Part shown: positions 2,979 through 16,682 of the stretch, in pieces
How positions within the stretch are numbered: the stretch's first letter is position 1
How the letters are laid out: every line of letters begins with the position of its first letter
NCBI GenBank assembly: GCA_009785045.1
Contig: WQXC01000002.1
Span: 1 to 35,226 of the forward strand
Length of the DNA: 35,226 nucleotides
Reading direction: 5' to 3'
From: Treponema sp.
Lineage (GTDB): Bacteria; Spirochaetota; Spirochaetia; Treponematales; Breznakiellaceae
The notes under the pieces: generated by a model
The model's input: only the letters and a program-made list of their open reading frames with translations
The model's database searches: none
Told to the model about the DNA's origin: nothing
Translations under genes and position numbers: made by a program

Positions 2979-3134
2979 AATTATCCGCTAAGAGAATCAT
3001 AACGCGATATGCCAAAAAATGCAAGAATTTATAATTTAAATGCTGAGAATTGTAAACATAAAAAACCTTCAACTTTTTTTAAGAATTTTTCATTCTCGGT
3101 CAAGCAACAGACCATCTGTGCGCCATATATATAC

Positions 3135-4718
3135 ATGAAAAACTTATATTTTCTTGCCGCAGTTTTTCTGTGCGGCGCCATTGTGTTTGCTGAAAGTCCC
3201 GCGCCGGACAAACAGGCGTTATTATTTAACTGGAGTCTTTTGTGGAGCGGTTCATGGGAAGAAAAAACTTTTACTTTTTCTGATGAACCGGCACTATCAG
3301 GTACTCTTAATAACCGCGGGGAAGTTAAGCTCCATTTTCTTCCGGCAGGTCTTGTATTGCGCGGTCAAGTTCTGGACAGACGGCCTATCAATGTTTCCCG
3401 GGAATCAATTAACGGGGTTATACCCATGAGCGACCCGGATAAATGGGTAACCAATTACACCGGCGGTCTGTATCATAAACCAACAGGCTCGCGGCTGCTG
3501 TACGGTGTGCTTGATGAATGGGGTTTGTCTGCAAGAATCCGCAACCCGTGGATTCGTTCTCCGCCTTATGCAGAAAATCATAAACCTATCATTGCAGACG
3601 CCAGAACTACAGTATCCAGCACAAGGGAAGACGAAATTTATCTGTATCTGTCCAGTCCGTTATTACAACTTTCACAAAGTACAAAACTAAGGGGGTTTAT
3701 CAGCGCACAGACAGAAGTTGATGAATTTACGCCTGCCCTGAGCGGCGGAATCGATCTTTCTTTTGCGCATAACACAGGATTGCTGCTGGAAACCTTTTAC
3801 ACGGGAAAAACTCTGCCGCCAACAAAGACAAGCGGTTGGTTTTCTGACTCGCCGCCGCTTCCCCAGCGTGAGTTCAGACTTTATGCCGCCGGGTTTCTTT
3901 TTTCTAATCCTGATTTCGCAATAAGTTCGGATTTTGCAATGTCGGAAACTTTTGCCGTTGGCAGTGATATTTATGCAAATGCAGGCCTGTCTTTTTCACC
4001 TTTATTACCCTTTGGTTACAGAGCACGTCCTTTATTAATTTCGCTTGCGGCAGACGGAGCTGGAGGGCAGTTTGTCTACAGAGACGGCTTAAACCACGGA
4101 GAGGGATTCAGAGGCGCTGCAAAAATTGAATGGAAAGACAGATACAGCTCGCTTTTAAGAATTAACACAGTTTTACGCAGCCCGGGTTTTGGCGAAGATT
4201 TTAACCGCAGCTCTACAGGTTTTTACTGGCGTTTCCCGTCCTCGGCAGCAATACGGAACAACAGCACTATCCGCTTAACGAGAATATCATTATCAGCGGA
4301 CAGAAATGCGGTAAATCCAGATAAGGTTTCAGATGGATTTTCCGGCAATATTGGGATTTCCCTGAATTTACGGCAAATAGGGATAAAAACTCCGCTGGGT
4401 ATCAATTTTTCAGGCTCAATTAAGGGAATGACAACCGCAGAAAACAGCCAGTCATTTTTCCCTATACCAGATGATAGATGGACAAGGGACAGTACTGCCA
4501 TAAACTGCGATTTAATCTGGTCACCGTTGAATTTCCAATTAAGAGGAAGAGCCGGAATAACTTTTATTGAAGGAAAAGAAGAAAAATGGGACATTTCGGC
4601 AAGCTGTGCTGTACGCTTTAAGTACGGAAGATTAAGCTTAAAGATGGCTTCACCTGATTTTCCGGAAAAATGGAACTGGACCATCTCATGGCGGCTGGAA
4701 AAGAAGGAAAAACCTTAA
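3135..4718 (+). CDS. Secreted/outer-membrane conserved hypothetical protein
   Basis: ORF 3009..4718. An internal ATG at 3135 (MKNLYFLAAVFLCGAIVFAESPAP) begins a clear signal peptide, so it is the likelier start. C-terminal region is rich in beta strands. Confidence 0.6.
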   Translation: MKNLYFLAAVFLCGAIVFAESPAPDKQALLFNWSLLWSGSWEEKTFTFSDEPALSGTLNNRGEVKLHFLPAGLVLRGQVLDRRPINVSRESINGVIPMSDPDKWVTNYTGGLYHKPTGSRLLYGVLDEWGLSARIRNPWIRSPPYAENHKPIIADARTTVSSTREDEIYLYLSSPLLQLSQSTKLRGFISAQTEVDEFTPALSGGIDLSFAHNTGLLLETFYTGKTLPPTKTSGWFSDSPPLPQREFRLYAAGFLFSNPDFAISSDFAMSETFAVGSDIYANAGLSFSPLLPFGYRARPLLISLAADGAGGQFVYRDGLNHGEGFRGAAKIEWKDRYSSLLRINTVLRSPGFGEDFNRSSTGFYWRFPSSAAIRNNSTIRLTRISLSADRNAVNPDKVSDGFSGNIGISLNLRQIGIKTPLGINFSGSIKGMTTAENSQSFFPIPDDRWTRDSTAINCDLIWSPLNFQLRGRAGITFIEGKEEKWDISASCAVRFKYGRLSLKMASPDFPEKWNWTISWRLEKKEKP

Positions 4719-4741: not shown

Positions 4742-4813
4742 TTGACTACTTTGTACGATATATATATTGTATCTTTATAATATATAGTATAATATGGAAA
4801 ATATTGAGGAGGT
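4742..4813 (+). promoter_or_regulatory. Possible promoter region and RBS for the receiver-CheX operon
   Basis: TTGACT at 4742-4747, AT-rich -10-like hexamers downstream (e.g. TATAAT at 4776-4781 and 4788-4793), GAGGAGGT RBS at 4806-4813 before ATG 4817. Spacing of any specific -35/-10 pair is uncertain. Confidence 0.35.
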
Positions 4814-4816
4814 CTT

Positions 4817-5203
4817 ATGCCTGCCGGTGTTACGATTATGATCGTCGACGACTCACGTATTATGAGGAACACAGTAAAAGGTGTTTTCTCTGGGGTAGAA
4901 TCCGTTTGCAACTTTATCGAGGCAAAAGACGGTGAAGAAGCACTTGCGTTACTGGAAACTCAAACCGTCGATCTGATACTGCTTGACTGGAATATGCCAA
5001 GATTATCAGGGATTGATTTCTTAAAGCAAGTTCGAGCGATGGATCAGTATAAAGATTTACCCATTATCATGGTAACCAGTGAAGCTGCGAAATTTAACGT
5101 TATTGAAGCGTTAAAACACGGAGCCACTGATTATATCACAAAGCCAATTAAACTGGATTTATTTAAACAGAAATTGGCAAAACTACGCTTATTCAGGATG
5201 TAA
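4817..5203 (+). CDS. CheY-like single-domain response regulator
   Basis: Receiver motifs MIVDDSRIMR, DLILLDWNMPRLSG, MVTSEA and YITKPI (DD, D, T/S, K all present). Confidence 0.9.
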   Translation: MPAGVTIMIVDDSRIMRNTVKGVFSGVESVCNFIEAKDGEEALALLETQTVDLILLDWNMPRLSGIDFLKQVRAMDQYKDLPIIMVTSEAAKFNVIEALKHGATDYITKPIKLDLFKQKLAKLRLFRM

Positions 5204-5205
5204 AG

Positions 5206-5694
5206 ATGACAGTAGAATTACAAAATTATGTAGAACCGTTTGTAGAAGTAACGGTAAACACTTTTAAAGAATTCGTTGGCATTGACGTAAGCCCAAGGCA
5301 TCCGCATTTTCTGGATCCGGATAAAGGTTTTGAATGGGATATTACAGCGGTTATCGGTCTTTCCGGTGTGGTAAAAGGCGCTGTTATAATTTCCATGAAG
5401 GCAGATCTTGCCATAAAACTTACAGATCTGCTTACCGGAGCGGAACATGATGAAATTGATGCTGATGTAATCGATGCTATTGGCGAAATAAACAATATTA
5501 TCGCCGGCAACATTAAACCAAAAGTGCCAAACGGGGATAGGATTGTTATTTCTATTCCAACAATTATCAAAGGAAGAGAGCATTCAATAGCATGGCCAAG
5601 CAAACAGACGCGCATTCTTTGCATTCCGCATAAAGCTTTTGATAACGATATTTTTCATCTTATGGTGGCAATCGAACTTGACCCTGAAAATTAA
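5206..5694 (+). CDS. cheX: CheX-like chemotaxis phosphatase
   Basis: 162 aa. CheX/CheC-type ExxN motif in 'DAIGEINNIIAGNIKP', 'VVKGAVIISM' fold signature, adjacent to the receiver (2-nt gap). Confidence 0.8.
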   Translation: MTVELQNYVEPFVEVTVNTFKEFVGIDVSPRHPHFLDPDKGFEWDITAVIGLSGVVKGAVIISMKADLAIKLTDLLTGAEHDEIDADVIDAIGEINNIIAGNIKPKVPNGDRIVISIPTIIKGREHSIAWPSKQTRILCIPHKAFDNDIFHLMVAIELDPEN

Positions 5695-5709
5695 ACAGGA
5701 GAGAACATA

Positions 5710-6672
5710 ATGAAACATGTTTTTGTGTTCGATCCAAAAGCATTTTACAGCCAGCAATGGAAAATGGATAATATCCTGGACAACATTGGGCAGTTTTTCA
5801 GAACTCAGGAAGCGCCCGACTTCTCTATTCAATTTTCACGCTACAGAAGAAACGCCATAGGGATAATCCAGGAAGAAGCGGAAAAAGCAAAAGCCGGCGA
5901 TATCATCAGAATTTATGCAATAGGTGGAGAGGAAATTCTTTTTGATTGCCTCAATGGCGTTGCTCATTTTCCAAACATGCAGCTTGCAGCCGTCCCGCAC
6001 GGTGAAACACATGATTTTTTAAGAGTATTCAGCGAAAAAGATGTTGAAGGTTTCAGGGATATTCCTTCTCTGGTTCAGGCGGAAGCGCTTCCAACAGATG
6101 CAATCAGATGGGGAATTAACTATGCGTTAAATTCCTGCTACATAGGAATGAATTCCGCAATATCAAAAAATCTTAAAGACATGAGATCCAGCTTAAACAA
6201 GGGAAGCTTTATAGTATTTTCAAAACTATCATCTTTTATGAATTTATTATTTACTGCATTCGACAGGAAAGTCGCTGCACGTCAATACAAAATTTCCATT
6301 GATGATCAGGATTACAGCGGACATTACTGCCTTATTCATATCGCGAATGGTCCGTTTCATGCAGGAAAGAAAACCGGCGTTGCAGACGCAACTCCCGATG
6401 ACGGATTGTTTGATATCGCATTGATAAAATCGTCACATCCTATGGGAATGCTGTCTTCCATGAGAAGATACTCCAGAGGAAAACGTCCAAGAAACTGCAT
6501 TTTTGTGCAGGGTAAAAAAATAACGGTTCAAGCAGACAGCCAAATGTGGATTCAGCTTGATAATGAATATATTCAGGATACCAATATCACATTGAACATG
6601 GTCCATCATGCGGTGCAAATGGTAGCGGTAAACGATCTATCATACCCAATGGCCTCGATAGCGGCTCTTTAA
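5710..6672 (+). CDS. Diacylglycerol/sphingosine-kinase-fold (YegS/BmrU-like) protein with diverged catalytic motifs
   Basis: C-terminal 'GPFHAGKKTGVADATPDDGLFDIALI' is diagnostic of the family. The N-terminal GGDGT equivalent is IGGEEILFDCLNG and the GTxNDFAR equivalent is PHGETHDFLRVF. Confidence 0.75.
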   Translation: MKHVFVFDPKAFYSQQWKMDNILDNIGQFFRTQEAPDFSIQFSRYRRNAIGIIQEEAEKAKAGDIIRIYAIGGEEILFDCLNGVAHFPNMQLAAVPHGETHDFLRVFSEKDVEGFRDIPSLVQAEALPTDAIRWGINYALNSCYIGMNSAISKNLKDMRSSLNKGSFIVFSKLSSFMNLLFTAFDRKVAARQYKISIDDQDYSGHYCLIHIANGPFHAGKKTGVADATPDDGLFDIALIKSSHPMGMLSSMRRYSRGKRPRNCIFVQGKKITVQADSQMWIQLDNEYIQDTNITLNMVHHAVQMVAVNDLSYPMASIAAL

Positions 6673-6682
6673 GGAATAGTTC

Positions 6683-8953
6683 ATGGCAATAAAGAGAACA
6701 GAAAGTACAAGATTAAGAAGTATCGCAAACTTTTCCGCTATTGCGATAGTTATTTTCTTAAGCGCCGCATTTGTTTTTGAAACATTAATGGCAGAAATAA
6801 AAGTTAATTACAGCGTCGCAGGTCTTGTAATGATCATAACCCTGTTAATTATTACTGCAATTATAAGAAATTCAATCAATCATTTTAAAATGGCTTTTAA
6901 TGTTCCGTTTGTGCTGCTGCTTTTCTATACTGCGCTTATGATGCTTTGCGGATGGTACAATTCGCATTATATGCTCATCAGTATTTTTCTTATCGCAATT
7001 AGCTGTATATATTCAAACTTTAACAGAACACTGACCTTTATTATCGTACAAAATATAATTATCGCATTCCTGTTTATCAGAGGTACTCCGATAGGCGGAG
7101 AAGTGCCAATGCTCACTGTATTGATTAACTGGGTAATCTGTATTTTCAGCGGAATAATCATGCTGCTGCTTACAAGAGCTGCTACAGTTATTTTAAACAA
7201 AGCGCTGGAACACCAAAATTCATTTATGGATCTTCTTGCATCTACAGAAAACTTTGTCGCCATGATAGACGAACGGAATGAGGTTGTTTATGCAAGTAAA
7301 ACCCTTTCTGAACTTGGTAATACAACAGAACCGACTCTGGTTCAGGGTCGTCCGTTAATCGACCTTTTCCCCGGAAGAAGCCTTAAGATTCATGCCGGAA
7401 AGTTATTAAAAGAAAAAGATGATTACGCAGAAGACTGGGAATTTTCACTGAACGGACAAAAGCGATTCTTTAAAGCTGCTTCGCACAGTCTGCCGGGAGG
7501 CGGCGGCACGCTAATCTCCCTGTATGACATGACGCACCTTGCTGAACGCGACGAAATTGCAGTTATGAAAGACAGCATGAGGATAGGTCTTTTCTTCATG
7601 GACAAAAATTTTATTATCCAGGATCATTATTCGCGGTATCTGGAAGAAATGCTGTCCGACACAAAACTTTTTGGAAAAGTATTTACAGATGTTATATCTG
7701 ATTCTGTCAACTTAAGCGAACTGGAAGCCATTAAGGATTACTTTAAGATGATCCTTGAACGTACATATGATCAGGACATGCTGGAAGAAATAAACCCATT
7801 GAATGAACTTCATTATGTAAACAGAGCAACTGGCGAAAAAAAAGTTTTTCAATTTGCGTTTGCTACAGTAGAAAGAGGGCGCGGAGAGGTTTTTATTCTG
7901 GTAACGGTCTACGATATAACCACAAGAGTAGAACTGCAGCAAAGGCTGGCGGAAGAAGAAGCAAGGCGCCAGGAAGAAATGCAGGCTGTCTTTGAACTTA
8001 TTCAGGTTGAACCGGATGTATTCAGCGACTTTATGTCAGACATGGAGCACGAGTTTGAAAGTATCGATAAAATCCTTAAAAACGAATCATTGTCTGCGCA
8101 TGACGCTCTGGTAAAAGTATACCAGTCTGTCCACGCAATAAAATCCAATGCAGTAATATTGGGACTGAATGTATTTGGAAATAAAGTACATAACCTGGAA
8201 TCAAAAATTAAAAAACTGCGTGAAATGCAGGGCGAAGTACCTTTCGGTGAAATGCTGAACCTGACAATGGAAATAGAAAAGATATCACAGGAAAAAGAAG
8301 GGTTCAGAAGCATAATTGATAAACTTCAGTCATATGCCGGAGGCGCAAAGAAAGTCGAAACCACAGGCAGCGACAGACAAAAGGTAATGATTGACTCACT
8401 TACCAAAACAACTACAAGAGTCGCAGCAGACTTAGAAAAGAAAATCAAGTTTATAGCAGAAGAGATAGATACCGAAGCCATCGAAAGAGGCCCAAGACGG
8501 GAAATGAAAGAAATACTTATGCAGCTTATCCGTAACTCTGCTGTACACGGGGTTGAAACACCAAAAGAACGAAAAGCAAAAGGCAAAAAAGAAACCGGCA
8601 TTATTAAGCTTTCAATCAAGTTATCAGAAGATCGCAAAAACATCATAATGAAACTGACAGATGACGGAAAAGGCCTTGATTATAAAAAAATCGCAGAAAG
8701 GGCTTTAAGCCGGAAATTAATAAAAAAAGAAGATGCGGAAAACAAAGATATTTTAATGAAAGCAATATTCTCACCCGGATTTAGTACTGCGGAAACCGAA
8801 GGTATTCACGGCGGCAGGGGAATTGGCTTAAATCTTGTCCGCGATCGCTTAAAAGAAATCAGAGGTACAGTTAAACTTAGATCCGAAGACAACAAGGGAA
8901 CACTGTTCTTTATGTCTATTCCGTTAAAAGACAGAAGAAAAAGGCAAAGTTAG
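6683..8953 (+). CDS. Membrane-bound CheA-like histidine kinase: multi-TM N-terminus, PAS-like region, Hpt, HATPase
   Basis: Hydrophobic N-terminal segments; PAS-like 'ENFVAMIDERNEVVYASKTLSEL'; Hpt 'VHAIKSNAVILGL'; CheA-type N/G boxes 'LIRNSAVHGVETPKERKAKGK', 'TDDGKGLDYKKIAERAL', 'IFSPGFSTAETEGIHGGRGIGLNLV'. No CheW-like domain at the C-terminus. Confidence 0.85.
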   Translation: MAIKRTESTRLRSIANFSAIAIVIFLSAAFVFETLMAEIKVNYSVAGLVMIITLLIITAIIRNSINHFKMAFNVPFVLLLFYTALMMLCGWYNSHYMLISIFLIAISCIYSNFNRTLTFIIVQNIIIAFLFIRGTPIGGEVPMLTVLINWVICIFSGIIMLLLTRAATVILNKALEHQNSFMDLLASTENFVAMIDERNEVVYASKTLSELGNTTEPTLVQGRPLIDLFPGRSLKIHAGKLLKEKDDYAEDWEFSLNGQKRFFKAASHSLPGGGGTLISLYDMTHLAERDEIAVMKDSMRIGLFFMDKNFIIQDHYSRYLEEMLSDTKLFGKVFTDVISDSVNLSELEAIKDYFKMILERTYDQDMLEEINPLNELHYVNRATGEKKVFQFAFATVERGRGEVFILVTVYDITTRVELQQRLAEEEARRQEEMQAVFELIQVEPDVFSDFMSDMEHEFESIDKILKNESLSAHDALVKVYQSVHAIKSNAVILGLNVFGNKVHNLESKIKKLREMQGEVPFGEMLNLTMEIEKISQEKEGFRSIIDKLQSYAGGAKKVETTGSDRQKVMIDSLTKTTTRVAADLEKKIKFIAEEIDTEAIERGPRREMKEILMQLIRNSAVHGVETPKERKAKGKKETGIIKLSIKLSEDRKNIIMKLTDDGKGLDYKKIAERALSRKLIKKEDAENKDILMKAIFSPGFSTAETEGIHGGRGIGLNLVRDRLKEIRGTVKLRSEDNKGTLFFMSIPLKDRRKRQS

Positions 8954-9795
8954 GTAGAAAGTCCCGCGCCAATTGCTGTTGTATACTCAGCATTTTCAGG
9001 GTAGATAAATTCAATTCCATACATCGCAGAAATAACAGAAAACACTTTCTGCCCTATCGGATTTTTACTTCCATTACCAGTAACAATAACACGGCAGACT
9101 TCGTTAGTTCCGGAATTTTTTGCCTTTGCAGCAAAAACTGAAAGAACTCCAATTACCTGATACACCATATTAATAATGCCTAAAGCAATATCCGCAGGAG
9201 TTGCGGTATCCAGCATTTTTCCAAAATTGGAAGCGGTACTCTCCCCGTTTAAAAAACTTAAACTTGTATCGGTAATGTCACCTAATAGAAGATCTACCTG
9301 GTTTATTTTCCCGTTTTTTGCAAGTTCCATTATGTCACGGAATTCAGCAACCGGAAGAAGTTTTTTTGCAAGTCCCAGAATTGTTCCGCCTCCGACGCCA
9401 GTTCCGCCAAAATGAAAAATGCCTCTGTCGCCGGCTTCGATTATAACTGTTCCTGTCCCAATGTTGGTAATAATAATATTTTTCATGCCGGAAAGGTACA
9501 TTCCGCCAATACCTATCGCTTCTATTTCGTTAACTCTGCCTGTGGGAATACCAAAAATATCATCATTTATTTTTGACGCTCCTGCGCCGGTTATTGCAAT
9601 TTTTTCGACTGCGCTTATTTTTATGCCATTTTCCAGAACTATCTTTCCAAACGCGCCGGTAGCGGCTGTAATGGCATCCTGGGCTCTTGCTTTTATCTTT
9701 CTTGTAACTTTACCGTTTTCTATGGAAATTGCTTTTGTTGTAGTGCTGCCAATATCAATTCCGATTATCAATTTATTCTCCTGCGTATGTAACAC
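8950..9795 (-). CDS. coaW: Type II pantothenate kinase (CoaW/PanK-II-like)
   Basis: Acetate/sugar-kinase fold: IGIDIGSTTTK, ITGAGAS, GGTGVGGGTILGL, ESTASNFGK, VTGNGS, TAIGAGL. The track start is GTG (9795). An in-frame TTG at 9771 preceded by AGGAG gives MIIGIDIGSTTTK and may be the true start. Confidence 0.8.
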   Translation of the reverse strand: MLHTQENKLIIGIDIGSTTTKAISIENGKVTRKIKARAQDAITAATGAFGKIVLENGIKISAVEKIAITGAGASKINDDIFGIPTGRVNEIEAIGIGGMYLSGMKNIIITNIGTGTVIIEAGDRGIFHFGGTGVGGGTILGLAKKLLPVAEFRDIMELAKNGKINQVDLLLGDITDTSLSFLNGESTASNFGKMLDTATPADIALGIINMVYQVIGVLSVFAAKAKNSGTNEVCRVIVTGNGSKNPIGQKVFSVISAMYGIEFIYPENAEYTTAIGAGLST

Positions 9796-10874
9796 TATTC
9801 CTTAAAGCGATCTGCAATTTTATTAAATATTTTTATCAGCGTCGGATCAAAATGCGTTCCGCTGCCTTCCAAAATTATCTGCACCGCTTCTTTATGGCTA
9901 TAGGCTTTTTTATACGGGCGTACGGAAATAAGAGCATCGTAAACATCGGCAATCGCCATAATACGACCCAATAAAGGTATGTCGTTTCCTTTTAATTTAT
10001 TGGGATAACCAGTACCGTCCCACCATTCATGATGGGTTGTTGCGAATATTTTTGCGTATCTTAAGAACTCGCTTTCGTCTGCCAATATTTCAACTTTTTC
10101 CATTATTTGCTTTCCGACATGTGTGTGAATCTTCATATCTTCATATTCATCGTTGCTGAGTTTTCCAGGCTTTCTTAAAATATTATCGCTTATAAATATT
10201 TTTCCTACGTCATGAAGCTGACAGGACTGAACCAATAAATCTATATTCCAACCCTTTGTTTCTTCTTTGTATAAACCGCTTTGAATAACTTCGTTAAGCA
10301 GAATTCTAAGTCCCCGCTGCGTTCGTTCGATATGCTTACCGGTAATATCATCGCGGTATTCAACAAGTTCCGCCATTGTTTTTAACAGAGCATTTTGAAG
10401 CTGTAAAATGTTTTGTGTTTTTTCATCTATCATCTTTTGCAGATTATCATTAAAGTACTTAAGTTCTGCAGCCTGATGTTCAAGGGTTTTTTTCTGCTCT
10501 TCTACCAAAAGATGAACCTCGATACGTTTTAAAAGCAGAGCCGGCTGAATGGGTTTGGTAATGTAGTCCATTGCTCCCAACGAAAGAGCGGCAAGTTCAG
10601 CGTCGGATTCGGCGCGCGCGGTAAGGAAAATTACAGGAATATCTTTGGTTTCGGCTTTGGATTTAAGGAGTTTGATGGTTTGATAACCGTCCATTTCCGG
10701 CATATCAACATCCAATAGTATTAAATCCGGGATATTACTGCTTAAAAGGTTAAAAAGCTTCTCAGCCGACGGAGCAGTAGCAACAACATATTTATCTGAT
10801 AATATATTCTTGCCTATACGGAGGTTCGCGGGATTGTCATCCACCATTATAATCAAAGCTTTTTGTTTTGGCAT
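9795..10874 (-). CDS. Response regulator with HD-GYP domain (RpfG-like cyclic di-GMP phosphodiesterase)
   Basis: N-terminal receiver (MVDDNPANLRIG, DLILLDVDMPEMDG, YITKPI). HD-GYP signatures: HDVGK, HTHVGK, THHEWWDGTGYPNKLKG, RIMAIADVYDAL. Confidence 0.92.
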   Translation of the reverse strand: MPKQKALIIMVDDNPANLRIGKNILSDKYVVATAPSAEKLFNLLSSNIPDLILLDVDMPEMDGYQTIKLLKSKAETKDIPVIFLTARAESDAELAALSLGAMDYITKPIQPALLLKRIEVHLLVEEQKKTLEHQAAELKYFNDNLQKMIDEKTQNILQLQNALLKTMAELVEYRDDITGKHIERTQRGLRILLNEVIQSGLYKEETKGWNIDLLVQSCQLHDVGKIFISDNILRKPGKLSNDEYEDMKIHTHVGKQIMEKVEILADESEFLRYAKIFATTHHEWWDGTGYPNKLKGNDIPLLGRIMAIADVYDALISVRPYKKAYSHKEAVQIILEGSGTHFDPTLIKIFNKIADRFKE

Positions 10875-10926
10875 GATACATTATACTATAAATCGTAACA
10901 TATGTCCATAAACCTGTAAAAAAGCG

Positions 10927-13900
10927 TCAGGAATTACTATTTATTGCCTTTTTTACAGTTTTTATAGCATTGTCAAATTCAGTTATAAGAACATCATCGG
11001 AAATTTTGTCGATTATTTCTTTAGTTGCTTCATCCAATGACTGTATATTTATAATTTTTAATATTCTGTCGATGTTTTCTGCATTTTTAGTAATTAATGC
11101 TTTTTCCAATTTTTTAAGCAGTGTTATAAACTTTTCATCGCTGCCTGACACTTTATTACTGTCATTCCCTGATATCTTATTTGCATCAAGATAAATAATT
11201 ATACTTTCCATTAGGTCGGATAGGTGATCAAAAAACTTATGGGCATTTCCGCTAATAAAAGATAAATCTCCATTCTTGCCGGCTTCTTCCAAAGCAGCGG
11301 CTTCTGCAGATAATTCAGACGCGCCTATAGCGCCGGAAGCGCTTTTTAAAGCATGGACATGAATAATAAATGACGGAAGGAAAGAGTCTGTTTCAAGAAT
11401 CTTCCGCAGCGTTTGTAGCCTTTCCTGCGCATCTTTACAGAAAGTAGATAACACGGAGATATATCCACCTTCTGTACCGCCTGTCATGGATATACCCTTC
11501 TGCACATTTACACCTTTAATTACAGGAACCTGAGCGGTTTTTTTATCTTGTTTATCCACAGTAACTCCCTTTTCCCTCTTGTCTTCAGGAATCCATCTGT
11601 TAAGAATATCATCCAGCGCAGATACATCAATCGGTTTTGCAAGGAAGTCATTGAAGCTTTTTTCTATGAACATTTCTCTGACTCCAAAAACAGCATTTGC
11701 AGTTAAAGCGATTATCGGGATTCTGTCTGAGTAAGATATCCCCTTATCTTTTTCCCAGTCACGGATAATTGCAGTTGCTTCAACGCCGTCCATATCGGGC
11801 ATCATGTGATCCATAAATATAATATCGTATTTAAAATGTTTAACCAGCTCTGTTGCTTCAGCTCCGCTAAGGCACGTGTCAACTTTTACATGATAAGGAG
11901 CCATTAAACCTTCGGCAACTTTTAAATTTGTTTGTATATCATCAACAACAAGTATTCGCGCATCCGGAAATGCATATCGGATAATACCGGAAACAACAGC
12001 GCCTTCCGAATAACCCTTACTGTCATCCCTTCCGTTTAGGATATTTGCAAGCGACAATGATTGTATCGGTAAAGACACAAAACGAACATTGGAAATATAA
12101 GCTTCTGTTCCCCATTCCACCATTAATGCAAGCGGCGGTTTTCTTCCTCCAGGATACTCGGCATCCGGTTTTTCCATTACTTTCTTTATTTTATCATGAA
12201 TACCATAACCGGAAAGAATAAGTGACCATTCATTTTCAAAAAGCGCTTTGGTAAAATCATCAATACATGTAACCAATTGATAAGGGACGCCTAAATTTTC
12301 CAAAGACCAGGCTACAGAATTTGCATAAATGGATCTGCCTTCGTAAATTAATACATTTTTATCTTTTGCATTTTCTACTACTGCAAATGTTTCATCTGAA
12401 TCCACACCCTGAGGAATTGTTGCGGTAAAAATACTGCCTTTGCCAATATCACTGTCCATGGTTATGTCACCATCCATGATAAGGCACAGCCGTTTTGTAA
12501 TTGCTAAACCCAGTCCGGTTCCTTCTATGTTTCTGTTTCTTCTAAGATCTACTTGTACAAATTCACCAAATAATCTTTTTTGATCTTCAAGGCTAATACC
12601 CTTGCCGGTGTCTGCTACGGTAAAACAAAGCCATACTTTATTATCTTTTCTGTGCCGCACAGTAATGGTTAGGCTGATAAATCCTCTTTCTGTAAATTTT
12701 GCAGCATTGGAAAGCAAGTTAAGCAGAATTTGACGAAGGCGTACTTCATCTCCAATCAGGCTGTTTGGTATTTGTCCGTCAATATTTGTATAAAAACGTA
12801 TAGGTTTATCTTTAAGCCGGGTGCGAATAATATTTACAGTATCGTTAACAAGAGAGGCAAGCAGGTACCTGACAGGTATAATTTCCATTTTGCCGGCTTC
12901 TATTTTAGAAAAATCCAGAATGTCATTAATGATAGAGATAAGATTATTCCCCGCCTGTTTAATGTCCTGTGCATAACTTCTTGCTTCGTCGCAAAGATCG
13001 CTTCGCAGAAGAAGCTCCGCCATTCCGGTGATGGCATTCATCGGCGTGCGAATCTCATGGCTCATGCTCGCAAGGAAGCTACTCTTTGTACGATTTGCCA
13101 TTTCCGCTTCTTCACGCAGTTCTACAAGACGGCTATTTTGAGCTCTGATTTCATCTACAATGTTAAAAACATACTCACCTGTTTTTTCTACATTGTTCTG
13201 ATAAACGATAAGCATTCTTTCGATATCTTCTTTTGAGATATTAGACTGCTCAATCATGGCGCCAAGGCTTTTCCTGATATTTTCGTAATTAACAAGAGCA
13301 GTCTCGTCAGTCTGAGCATCCATGCTTCCTTTTAAATAGGAAATAGTAATGTTTAAAAGTTCGCTGCGGCTTACGATATCAAAGACCAGGGATTTTAGCT
13401 TACTGTCCGTATAATGGAAAAGACGTTTTGTTTTAAAAGGGTCTGCCATTCCCTGTTCCAGCAAAGTTCCAAAAAACACAGCCGTTAAAGTCTGGTTGTG
13501 GTGTGTAAAAAGCTCTTCGCCGTATGTATTAAATCCAATCATTGGATATTTTTTAAATACATTATTAAACTCATCTACTATATTCTTGTCTACAAGTTCC
13601 AGGTAACGCTGAATGCAATTAAAAAGAAGACAACCCTGAATACCAGGTAAAAATTGTGTGGTTCCGGCTATACCTTCTTCTGCATTTGCAATAATGTCTC
13701 CCTGCTTAAGCAGAAACACTTTGGTACCGGCTTCTATGTAGCAGTAAAACTGCAGACCTTTACCGTTAATAACAAGGTTAGGACTGCGTAAATAAACGCT
13801 GTCTCCCAAAACAAGCCCAAGAGGATTTCTTGCAAAAACTTCCAGTGTTAGCTCGCTTACATCTTTTACTCCGACCTGTCTGGCATAAAATTCCGCCGCA

Positions 13901-14571
13901 GGTTCACCGTTAATCTCCCAGGCAATTCTCTGCATAATTTCAACACGGGTAATGGTGAACGATGCTGTTGTGGGTAAATAATGAACATAATGGTTAAAGT
14001 AAAAAGGTATTTTCATCTTAAGGATTGCAGCAACAAGTCCGTCTCCGGACATTTTATCGCCTGCTCCTACAAGAGTTTTTGTAAAAGTCATTTCGTCTGC
14101 GGCAGCTCCGCCGACAAATGCCATGTTAAGATCCTTCTCCATGGAGAATTCTTTCATTATTAATTCGCCAAGACAAAGGCCGTCAAAAAAAATCAATCCA
14201 AGGTATTCATCAGGGTTTATATTATGACCGGCTGTTTTGTTTTTTAGTTCCGAAATAGCCAGATGGGCGGCAAGGATAGGATCCCTTTTTACACCCTCCT
14301 GAAAGGAAAAATAGACTTCTGCTACTTCGTCGGAAGAAAGGGACATGACTGTAATACCGGTTCTAAGCGCTCCGCTGCTTGACCAACCCCCGTACATTGA
14401 AGCGCCGATACACACAGCTCCGGGAAATGCCTGAACAAGAGCTTTCTGGATTTTATATTCTTCAAAGGATGGCGAGAAGAAGTAGACAACAACCTTAATT
14501 CTAGGCTGCCCTACTTCGTCAATGATTTTTTGAATGTTCCAATCCTGTGAAGATGTTACCTTTACAGCCAT
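10927..14571 (-). CDS. FIST-domain hybrid sensor histidine kinase (FIST_N/FIST_C - HisKA - HATPase - pseudo-receiver - receiver - Hpt)
   Basis: N-terminal FIST sequence ([41 protein letters not shown]...); HisKA '[21 protein letters not shown]'; HATPase '[13 protein letters not shown]', 'VADTGKGIS', 'GTGLGLAI'; receiver '[14 protein letters not shown]'; Hpt '[17 protein letters not shown]'. Confidence 0.92.
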
Positions 14572-14612: not shown

Positions 14613-16682
14613 TTAAATCTTTTTCTTACTTAATAGCTCAACGGCTTCATGCGCCGTGGCGGCGTTAATCACAGCCTCGCGGACGGTTTCTTCCCTTAAA
14701 ATTGAACCAACAGCAGCAAGAAACTGCACATGCAAGCCGCAGGCTTTCTTCGGCGAAACAACCAAGACAAAGATTCGCGAGGGCTGACCATCCATTGACT
14801 CAAAATCGATGCCTGCCTTCTTTATACCTACCGCTACTGCAGTGCTTTCAATACCGTCTGTTTTTCCATGAGGCAGGGCAATCCCGTGATCCATACCGGT
14901 ACTCATGGTTTGTTCACGTTCCATAACATCCGCCAAAACAGTGTCACGATCCAAAAGGATGTTTGCGGCTGCAAGCACATCTACCAATTCTTTAATAACC
15001 TCTTCCTTGGTTTCGCCTTTTAATTCCATGGAAAAACAATGCGGATCCAGCAGGGCAAGAATATCTTTTGTGGTGCGGGCTTCGGCATCAAGCAGCTCCT
15101 TTTTCATTTCCTCCGGAGCTATGGATGTTTTTAATTTTTCTATAGTATGCGAAAGATCAAGAATAACTTCGTAAATTTCGTTTTTCACAAACGGCATGTC
15201 TGTTTTGGAAGTTGAAATCGCAATTGATTTTTTATCTTCGGTAATAATAAGAGCAATATCATCCTTGTGGGCTTTAGAAATGCCTTCATCAATATTCATG
15301 GTCTGAAGATAAAAACCTTCATTTCGCAGTTCGTTTAATAAATTGTCAATAACGAGATCTGCAATTTCTGCAGATTCAAAATTCCATACTTCTTTTACGG
15401 TATCATCGTTCTTTACCGATTTTCTTGTTCCTTGCCGCGAACTTTTCAACGCTAAACCAAGCAAAGGAGAAGAAGCAACAATGGTAAGAAAAATCATAAA
15501 AACCGCAGAGGAAAAAAGCTGGTTGTCAAGAACTCCGGCGGCAAGCCCAATACCGCAAGTAATTAAAGCGCCTTCGCCGCGGGGGATCATACCCGTTCCA
15601 ATTCTAAGAGCGCCTATACGGTTGAAACCCAAAAGCAGCGCAGGACCTCCAGCGCCGATTATTTTTGCCAAAATTACTGCCAATGTGTATATTGCGCCAA
15701 AGATCAAAACAGACGGCGAAATAATTTCTTTAACATTGACCATCATACCCATTACTGCAAAAAACATTGGCACAAAAAACACATACAGCGGACGGATACG
15801 TTCCTGAATTACTGCAGCAATATCGGTTTTTGAAAGTGAGAGCCCGGCAATATACGCGCCCATGATTAATGCTAATCCCTGTCTTTCAAGAAGACCGGCA
15901 AGTATTAATGCAAACCCAAGAGCAAGTACGGAAAAATCCAGACTGTTCTTAAAAAATTTTAAGAAACTGGCAAACACTTTTGATATGATAACAAAAACAA
16001 CTGTAACTCCCAGCCAGATTCCAAAAACTTTGCCAGCCATCAGTGCAATTGCAAGCGCCGAAAGTCCGTCTCCAGTATTTCCGCTCATTACAGAAACAAT
16101 TCCCATTACTACAGCCAGCAAAATAATCCAAACAACATCATCAAATACTGCAGCAGTTAAAATGGTTACGCCTTCCGGAGATTCAATTTTTTTACGCTCA
16201 GAAAGAGTACGGGCGCTTATACCTACAGAAGTTGTTGCGGCAATTATGCCTAAAAACAAGCAGTGCGGATCCCAAAAGGAAGCGTTAAAAACAAAAACAC
16301 CGCATAATGTTCCCGCCGCAAAAGAAAGAAGCGCGCCGCTTACGCCGATAATGCCGCCGGCTACTGAATAACGGAGAAATAAACTTAAATTGGTTTCAAG
16401 GCCGGAAACAAAGAGCAGGACGATCGAGGCAACTGTGGCAAAACCGTATAATTCAACACTTACTGCAACGCCGCTTGCCTCTGCAAGCGGAAAAATTCCC
16501 TGCGGAAAACCTGGCAGTACAATGCCGCCAAGCGCATAAGGACCAATAATTACACCTGCCATTAATTCACCCAGCACAGAAGGTATTCCTATCTTCTTTG
16601 CCAATTGACCAAACAGGCGTACTGAAAATAAAATAACGCCAATCTGGAGAACCAGTACGGCAACAAGTTCTGTTATTTGCAT
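14613..16682 (-). CDS. CPA2-family Na+(K+)/H+ antiporter fused to a C-terminal PTS EIIA (fructose/mannitol-type) domain
   Basis: N-terminal multi-TM antiporter (SVLGELMAGVIIGPYALGG..., LLFVSGLETNL, GMIPRGEGALI). C-terminal EIIA 'TVLADVMEREQTMSTGMDHGIALPHGKTDGI...', with the active-site His in ALPHGKT. Confidence 0.9.
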   Translation of the reverse strand: MQITELVAVLVLQIGVILFSVRLFGQLAKKIGIPSVLGELMAGVIIGPYALGGIVLPGFPQGIFPLAEASGVAVSVELYGFATVASIVLLFVSGLETNLSLFLRYSVAGGIIGVSGALLSFAAGTLCGVFVFNASFWDPHCLFLGIIAATTSVGISARTLSERKKIESPEGVTILTAAVFDDVVWIILLAVVMGIVSVMSGNTGDGLSALAIALMAGKVFGIWLGVTVVFVIISKVFASFLKFFKNSLDFSVLALGFALILAGLLERQGLALIMGAYIAGLSLSKTDIAAVIQERIRPLYVFFVPMFFAVMGMMVNVKEIISPSVLIFGAIYTLAVILAKIIGAGGPALLLGFNRIGALRIGTGMIPRGEGALITCGIGLAAGVLDNQLFSSAVFMIFLTIVASSPLLGLALKSSRQGTRKSVKNDDTVKEVWNFESAEIADLVIDNLLNELRNEGFYLQTMNIDEGISKAHKDDIALIITEDKKSIAISTSKTDMPFVKNEIYEVILDLSHTIEKLKTSIAPEEMKKELLDAEARTTKDILALLDPHCFSMELKGETKEEVIKELVDVLAAANILLDRDTVLADVMEREQTMSTGMDHGIALPHGKTDGIESTAVAVGIKKAGIDFESMDGQPSRIFVLVVSPKKACGLHVQFLAAVGSILREETVREAVINAATAHEAVELLSKKKI

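Follow-up and report, generated by a model that had tools for sequence, protein, structure and literature searches.

A diacylglycerol kinase-like protein as a candidate input-side partner of a membrane sensor kinase in a four-gene Treponema operon

Introduction

What is a protein with a lipid-kinase fold doing in an operon of chemotaxis-like signaling genes? The question is raised by a 35,226-nucleotide (nt) stretch of Treponema sp. DNA (GCA_009785045.1, contig WQXC01000002.1, positions 1 to 35,226, forward strand; hereafter, the window), in which four genes at 4817-8953 code for a stand-alone CheY-like receiver (REC), a CheX protein, a diacylglycerol kinase (DAGK)-like protein, and a membrane-embedded CheA-like kinase. 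A first-pass annotation, made from the letters alone, placed the DAGK-like protein at the output of the relay. We find instead that the DAGK-like gene goes with the N-terminal sensor domain of the kinase (six transmembrane [TM] helices plus a PAS domain), including in systems with a different catalytic core and no CheX. We therefore favor, with a probability of roughly 0.6, a membrane phosphorelay switch in which the DAGK-like protein would be the input-side partner of the six-TM + PAS sensor.

Our conclusions throughout are drawn from sequence comparison and predicted structures. The four-gene comparison set comprises 40 distinct module copies from two genera of the window's family, 31 from the window's own genus and nine from a second genus, g24. 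The source genome is 67% complete, and most of the genomes compared are incomplete assemblies; the termite hosts of near Treponema sp. relatives, which are metagenome-assembled genomes, are our reading of the isolate names. The scoring profiles were made in part from the loci under comparison, and the decisive searches with the kinase and its sensor used the window sequence alone.

The kinase consists of two joined modules

The kinase open reading frame (6683-8953, + strand) divides near residue 287, a junction placed by phmmer. The sensor half (residues 1-287; 6683-7543) has six hydrophobic helices within residues 14-162, and its predicted structure shows six helices and a PAS fold (pLDDT 82). 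In a fold search, the second half of this domain matched PAS structures alone, and the six-TM stretch gave no convincing match; a possible kinship with MASE6 received only 55% probability, over ∼100 columns, in a profile-profile comparison. The catalytic half (residues 288-756; 7544-8953) contains a second PAS-like region, an Hpt domain, and a CheA-type HATPase. The Pfam scores are 47.5 bits for HATPase_c and 20.7 bits for Hpt, the latter under its cut-off of 24.6, and the catalytic residues are H484 (in HAIKS, where it is invariant among 14 aligned kinases), N618, DDGKG at 660, and GRGIGL at 711. The best NCBIfam partial matches over residues 570-748 are CheA models, at 121 and 98 bits, which is below the whole-protein cut-offs. 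A Pfam scan at E 0.1 gave no match to CheW, H-kinase_dim (P3, PF02895), or P2, whereas the genuine CheA that this genome also encodes has all three. The first-pass description of a membrane-embedded, CheA-like kinase without a CheW domain thus holds.

The two halves have different relatives. Residues 287-748 match, with scores of 190 to 480 bits, the kinases of DAGK-free REC-CheX modules; these come from the window's family, from a different family of the order (L135), and from across the phylum. Residues 1-290 match the N-termini of HisKA-HATPase-REC(-Hpt) hybrid kinases that adjoin DAGK-like genes. A profile of the DAGK-associated sensor gives ∼300 to 340 bits with DAGK-linked kinases and at most 13 bits with those of the DAGK-free REC-CheX modules, the sensors of which are MASE6, dCache, or HAMP-linked. 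Two loci vary the number of kinases: in one (L057, 7343-11883), two six-TM CheA-like kinase copies lie in tandem behind a single DAGK gene, and in the other (L048, 7044-11730), there is an extra kinase copy that matches only from residue 292 on.

The DAGK-like gene accompanies the sensor domain

Searching with residues 1-290 alone finds 64 places in relatives, and in all but two of them (L142 and L143), or 62, the surrounding cluster contains a DAGK gene; the G045 locus ends at a contig edge but still includes the tail of its DAGK gene. Conversely, 72 of the 76 distinct DAGK-like genes have a six-TM + PAS kinase immediately downstream, and the remaining four include one cut by the end of its contig (L087), while L062 and L150, two of the four, represent a single gene that stands first in a tandem pair. 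About half of the DAGK partners are HisKA-HATPase-REC(-Hpt) hybrids without CheX, so what the partners all share is the N-terminal domain. We had also considered the DAGK gene as a marker of the CheX module, but this was ruled out by the searches with the separate kinase halves, in which DAGK follows the sensor domain.

The pairing extends to divergence. The distance matrices of the DAGK-like proteins and the sensors correlate at r = 0.96 over all pairs and 0.89 over hybrid partners only, with 0 of 2,000 permutations as high, and several diverged DAGK-kinase pairs can share one genome, each with its own partner. At one locus (L067, 4006-7326), a HisKA-HATPase-REC kinase continues at its C-terminal end into a DAGK domain, and a long frame of 1,130 aa elsewhere (G229:C46:4517-5533) may be a second such fusion. 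In one subgroup of loci (L078, L079, L080, and L083), the gene immediately preceding DAGK codes for a large protein; the example scanned (L080, 4429-6078) has HAMP and Hpt domains and could possibly be a further part of the relay.

Fold and motifs of the DAGK-like protein

The DAGK-like protein of the window (320 aa; 5710-6672, + strand) scores 39.7 bits with YegS_C (PF19279; cut-off, 27), 21.7 bits with DAGK_cat (PF00781), just under the cut-off of 23.6, and 77.1 bits with TIGR00147 (cut-off, 118.65). The best Foldseek match is DgkB (E 5e-17), the best PDB matches are 2QVL, 3T5P, and 2QV7, and sequence matches to DgkB and BmrU have values of 1e-11 to 1e-12; as modeled, the protein has the two-domain DgkB/YegS fold that characterizes the soluble lipid kinases DgkB, BmrU, and YegS. 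It differs from these in belonging to a separate, histidine-kinase-linked clade and in the motifs changed in the window's genus. Full-length members of this DAGK-like family score above ∼235 bits with the family profile, and ordinary DAGKs score ∼40 to 80 bits. In an order-wide sample, such members occur only in the window's taxonomic family, and a phylum-wide sample adds a single outlier outside the family (G326, 363 bits), which adjoins a six-TM kinase (L220, G326:C10) together with a REC-HD-GYP gene and may reflect transfer of the pair.

The window protein has GGEE at residues 72-75 in place of GGDG, and DNE at residues 284-286 in place of DGE. GGDG is an ATP-binding motif of lipid kinases (PMC10331486). 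Of the 31 module copies in the window's genus, 30 have lost GGDG and 25 have GGEE in its place, and most of the copies without GGDG also show the change of DGE to DNE. Both motifs are kept in all nine g24 copies, and among the DAGK-like proteins that partner hybrid kinases, GGDG is kept in 24/36 and DGE in 20/36. For residues other than GGDG, the roles are presumed. So uniform a replacement, with E75 invariant in 21 aligned copies, points to selection for a new role more than to decay. Judged by these motifs, the DAGK-like protein of the window's genus is most likely a sensor-tuning pseudokinase whose ligand is a lipid or nucleotide.

Organization and conservation of the operon

The four genes are codirectional, with intergenic gaps of 2, 15, and 10 nt, and a purine-rich ribosome-binding stretch precedes each of the four starts; open reading frames and Pfam matches bear out the layout given in the first-pass annotation. 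The 98 nt that separate the REC gene from the gene upstream contain a promoter-like site (TTGACT-17-TATTGT; 4742-4770, + strand; 9/12 matches), but since the scanned region holds 21 such sites against 14.3 expected, this single match is weak by itself.

The REC protein (128 aa; 4817-5203, + strand; PF00072, 102.6 bits) has D11, D12, the phospho-acceptor D57, T87, and K109, and in the family alignment D11, D12, D57, and K109 are invariant. CheX (162 aa; 5206-5694, + strand), a CheY-P phosphatase-like protein, matches PF13690 at 80.7 bits (cut-off, 27), and its ExxN motif, E94-I-N-N97, has E94 and N97 invariant across 13 CheX proteins; the CheX family profile matches solved CheX structures, with a best E of 8e-33. 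CheX is thus predicted, and likely, to remove phosphate from REC, and with all the needed residues intact in REC, CheX, and the kinase, the phosphorylation/dephosphorylation loop that had been suggested for this pair also appears likely.

The first-pass annotation had called for a neighborhood search for CheX beside DAGK-fold proteins, and this search revealed a conserved linkage: the REC-CheX-DAGK-kinase order recurs in 40 distinct copies, with DAGK identities to the window copy from ∼38% to 82%. It is present in nearly all genomes of the window's genus that have a close DAGK homologue, and also in g24. Mean identity to the window copy is 88% for CheX, 72% for DAGK, and 65% for the sensor half of the kinase, and REC is 88 to 99% identical to same-genus copies; by this measure, DAGK and the sensor half diverge faster than REC and CheX. 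The very high conservation of REC would fit a protein with several binding partners. Module copies form one clade in both the DAGK tree (support 100/99) and the tree of kinase N-termini (100/100), which indicates that the four-gene form arose once; the clade lies within a set of relatives whose partners are other kinases. Chance adjacency of the genes was also considered, and is ruled out by the recurring order, the counts of sensor-DAGK linkage, and the permutation test.

A REC-CheX-kinase core across the Spirochaetota

Without the DAGK gene, a three-gene module of receiver, CheX, and an Hpt/CheA-type-ATPase kinase lacking CheW is widespread across several families of the Spirochaetota (L121, L124-L126, L128, L130, L131, L134, L135, L138, L222, L223, and L226). 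Its REC, its CheX, and the region of its kinase corresponding to residues 287-748 are homologous to those of the window and in identical order; the differences are the absence of a DAGK gene and the presence of MASE6 or dCache sensors instead of six-TM + PAS. The source genome itself carries one of these modules (L121), as well as an ordinary cheA-cheX operon (G000:C44, L122), whose CheX is 22% identical to that of the window, and another cluster of che-like genes (L123), which encodes a receptor and a CheA that bears a CheW domain. The window system shares with spirochaete CheA-CheX-CheY an Hpt + CheA-type ATPase kinase, a CheY-like receiver, and a CheX with ExxN, but the window kinase is membrane-embedded with its own sensor, has no P2, P3, or CheW, and is encoded in an operon without receptor or CheW genes.

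We found no published description of a REC-CheX-sensor kinase module, and the three-gene form is apparently an undescribed, widespread spirochaete signaling module with interchangeable inputs. In the open-licence literature we likewise found no description of CheX with DAGK, of CheX outside chemotaxis, or of DAGK with histidine kinases. The first-pass statement that no system of this composition is known agrees with these searches. The three-gene core itself is not unique to this system and is phylum-wide.

Neighboring genes

A Pfam scan of the neighbors at 3009-4718 and 8950-14571 finds no receptor, CheW, CheR, or CheB, and methyl-accepting chemotaxis protein genes in the window are ∼20 kb from the module. 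The gene upstream (3009-4718, + strand) codes for a 569-aa protein with a likely signal peptide and no Pfam match; most members of the window's genus have it just ahead of the module. It evolves fast (45 to 64% identity in same-genus loci) and is absent from more distant module copies, and it is possibly outside the system. The genes at 8950-14571 run convergent to the module and keep this position in many same-genus loci; they code for a pantothenate-kinase-like protein (Fumble), an RpfG-like REC-HD protein, and a hybrid kinase with a FIST domain. A sodium/hydrogen exchanger fused to a PTS EIIA domain follows at 14613-16682.

Discussion

In the switch that we propose, the six-TM + PAS domain would let the kinase detect a signal at or within the membrane, and the kinase would autophosphorylate H484 of its Hpt domain; the phosphate would pass from H484 to D57 of the stand-alone REC, and CheX would take it off again, resetting the switch. 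In the window's genus, the DAGK-like protein would probably be a pseudokinase that controls how active the sensor is by binding a lipid or nucleotide. Its counterparts in sister lineages would probably be functional lipid kinases, making or clearing the lipid that is sensed. Direct contact between the DAGK-like protein and the sensor, the nature of the ligand, and the direction of regulation are parts of this proposal that we infer.

Several observations weigh against this proposal. The catalytic half of the kinase has 74% mean identity to the window copy and DAGK has 72%, and with values so nearly equal, rate alone cannot tell input from output. The codivergence of DAGK and sensor is due in part to coinheritance in one operon, and the DAGK-like protein could be regulated by the neighboring kinase rather than regulating it. 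The DAGK model is moderate (pLDDT 75.6, with TM-scores near 0.4 to DgkB despite the Foldseek value), such that pocket-level claims are not possible. Finally, D130 and D284 are near-universal and E286 is usually kept, so that loss of activity in the window's genus is likely rather than certain.

One alternative is the one put forward at the outset, that the DAGK-like protein is the output, with phosphorylated REC binding and switching it and thereby altering levels of diacylglycerol and phosphatidate or of another lipid. Membership of one conserved codirectional operon with REC and CheX fits this, as does the L067 fusion, in which DAGK stands right behind a receiver domain in what could be a receiver-to-effector arrangement. 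However, DAGK-like genes go with the six-TM + PAS domain even where CheX is missing, and REC-CheX-kinase modules with other sensors have no DAGK; these two patterns make an output role less likely, and the loss of the ATP motif in the genus with the most copies would be odd for an output enzyme. We consider this explanation unlikely, and this part of the first-pass annotation is not supported. An ordinary housekeeping lipid kinase that sits in the operon by accident would account for the DAGK fold and the weak Pfam match, but several of these genomes encode ordinary DAGKs in genes of their own (e.g., G007:C1:124480, G021:C11:14308, G022:C1:29438, and G032:C44:69060), and the signaling-linked DAGKs form a group apart that keeps its kinase neighbor in several diverged paralogues per genome. 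We reject this possibility, to which we give hardly any credence, and the refutation foreseen in the first-pass annotation, a housekeeping enzyme unlinked to the Che-like genes, is not what we find.

A further alternative is an active local enzyme. Here the DAGK-like protein would be a competent kinase of an unusual lipid, still active in the window's genus with a modified loop, and would make or clear the molecule that the sensor detects, by analogy with RpfF in RpfF-RpfC-RpfG. Retention of GGDG and DGE in many hybrid partners and in all g24 copies is consistent with this, as are the near-universal D130 and D284, and in 15/32 hybrid loci there is also a same-strand gene for an RpfG-like REC-HD-GYP protein. 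Fatty acids are sensed by the five-TM input domain of PA1396, which is similar to that of RpfC (PMC6536496). The hybrid-kinase relatives share with RpfF-RpfC-RpfG and PA1396 a multi-TM input, a HisKA-HATPase-REC(-Hpt) architecture, and, often, an RpfG-like gene plus a gene for a lipid-related enzyme. However, the enzyme here has a DAGK fold and is not of the RpfF type. The likeness, the closest in function that we see for the hybrid relatives, is one of analogy, from which we assign no family and claim no homology of the input domains; the window module has a CheA-like core with CheX, not an RpfC core, and its kinase does not have the HisKA hybrid + REC-HD-GYP pattern. With the ATP-binding motif lost in nearly all copies of the window's genus and E75 invariant, we consider this explanation unlikely as well.

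Dedicated accessory proteins are known for two-component systems, although we found none with a lipid-kinase fold in the open-licence literature. The input-side switch that we favor raises the broader prospect, for which we see the chances as about even, that proteins of the DAGK fold form a new class of accessory factors devoted to histidine kinases, which work with the six-TM + PAS sensor to detect or process a membrane lipid, are coupled to both HisKA hybrid and CheA-like/CheX cores, and have become a pseudokinase lipid sensor in one genus. If true, this would provide a testable case in which an enzyme fold was recruited for lipid sensing and its catalytic motif was afterwards lost. It would also offer an example of a kinase put together from two modules, with components that can be traced one gene at a time.

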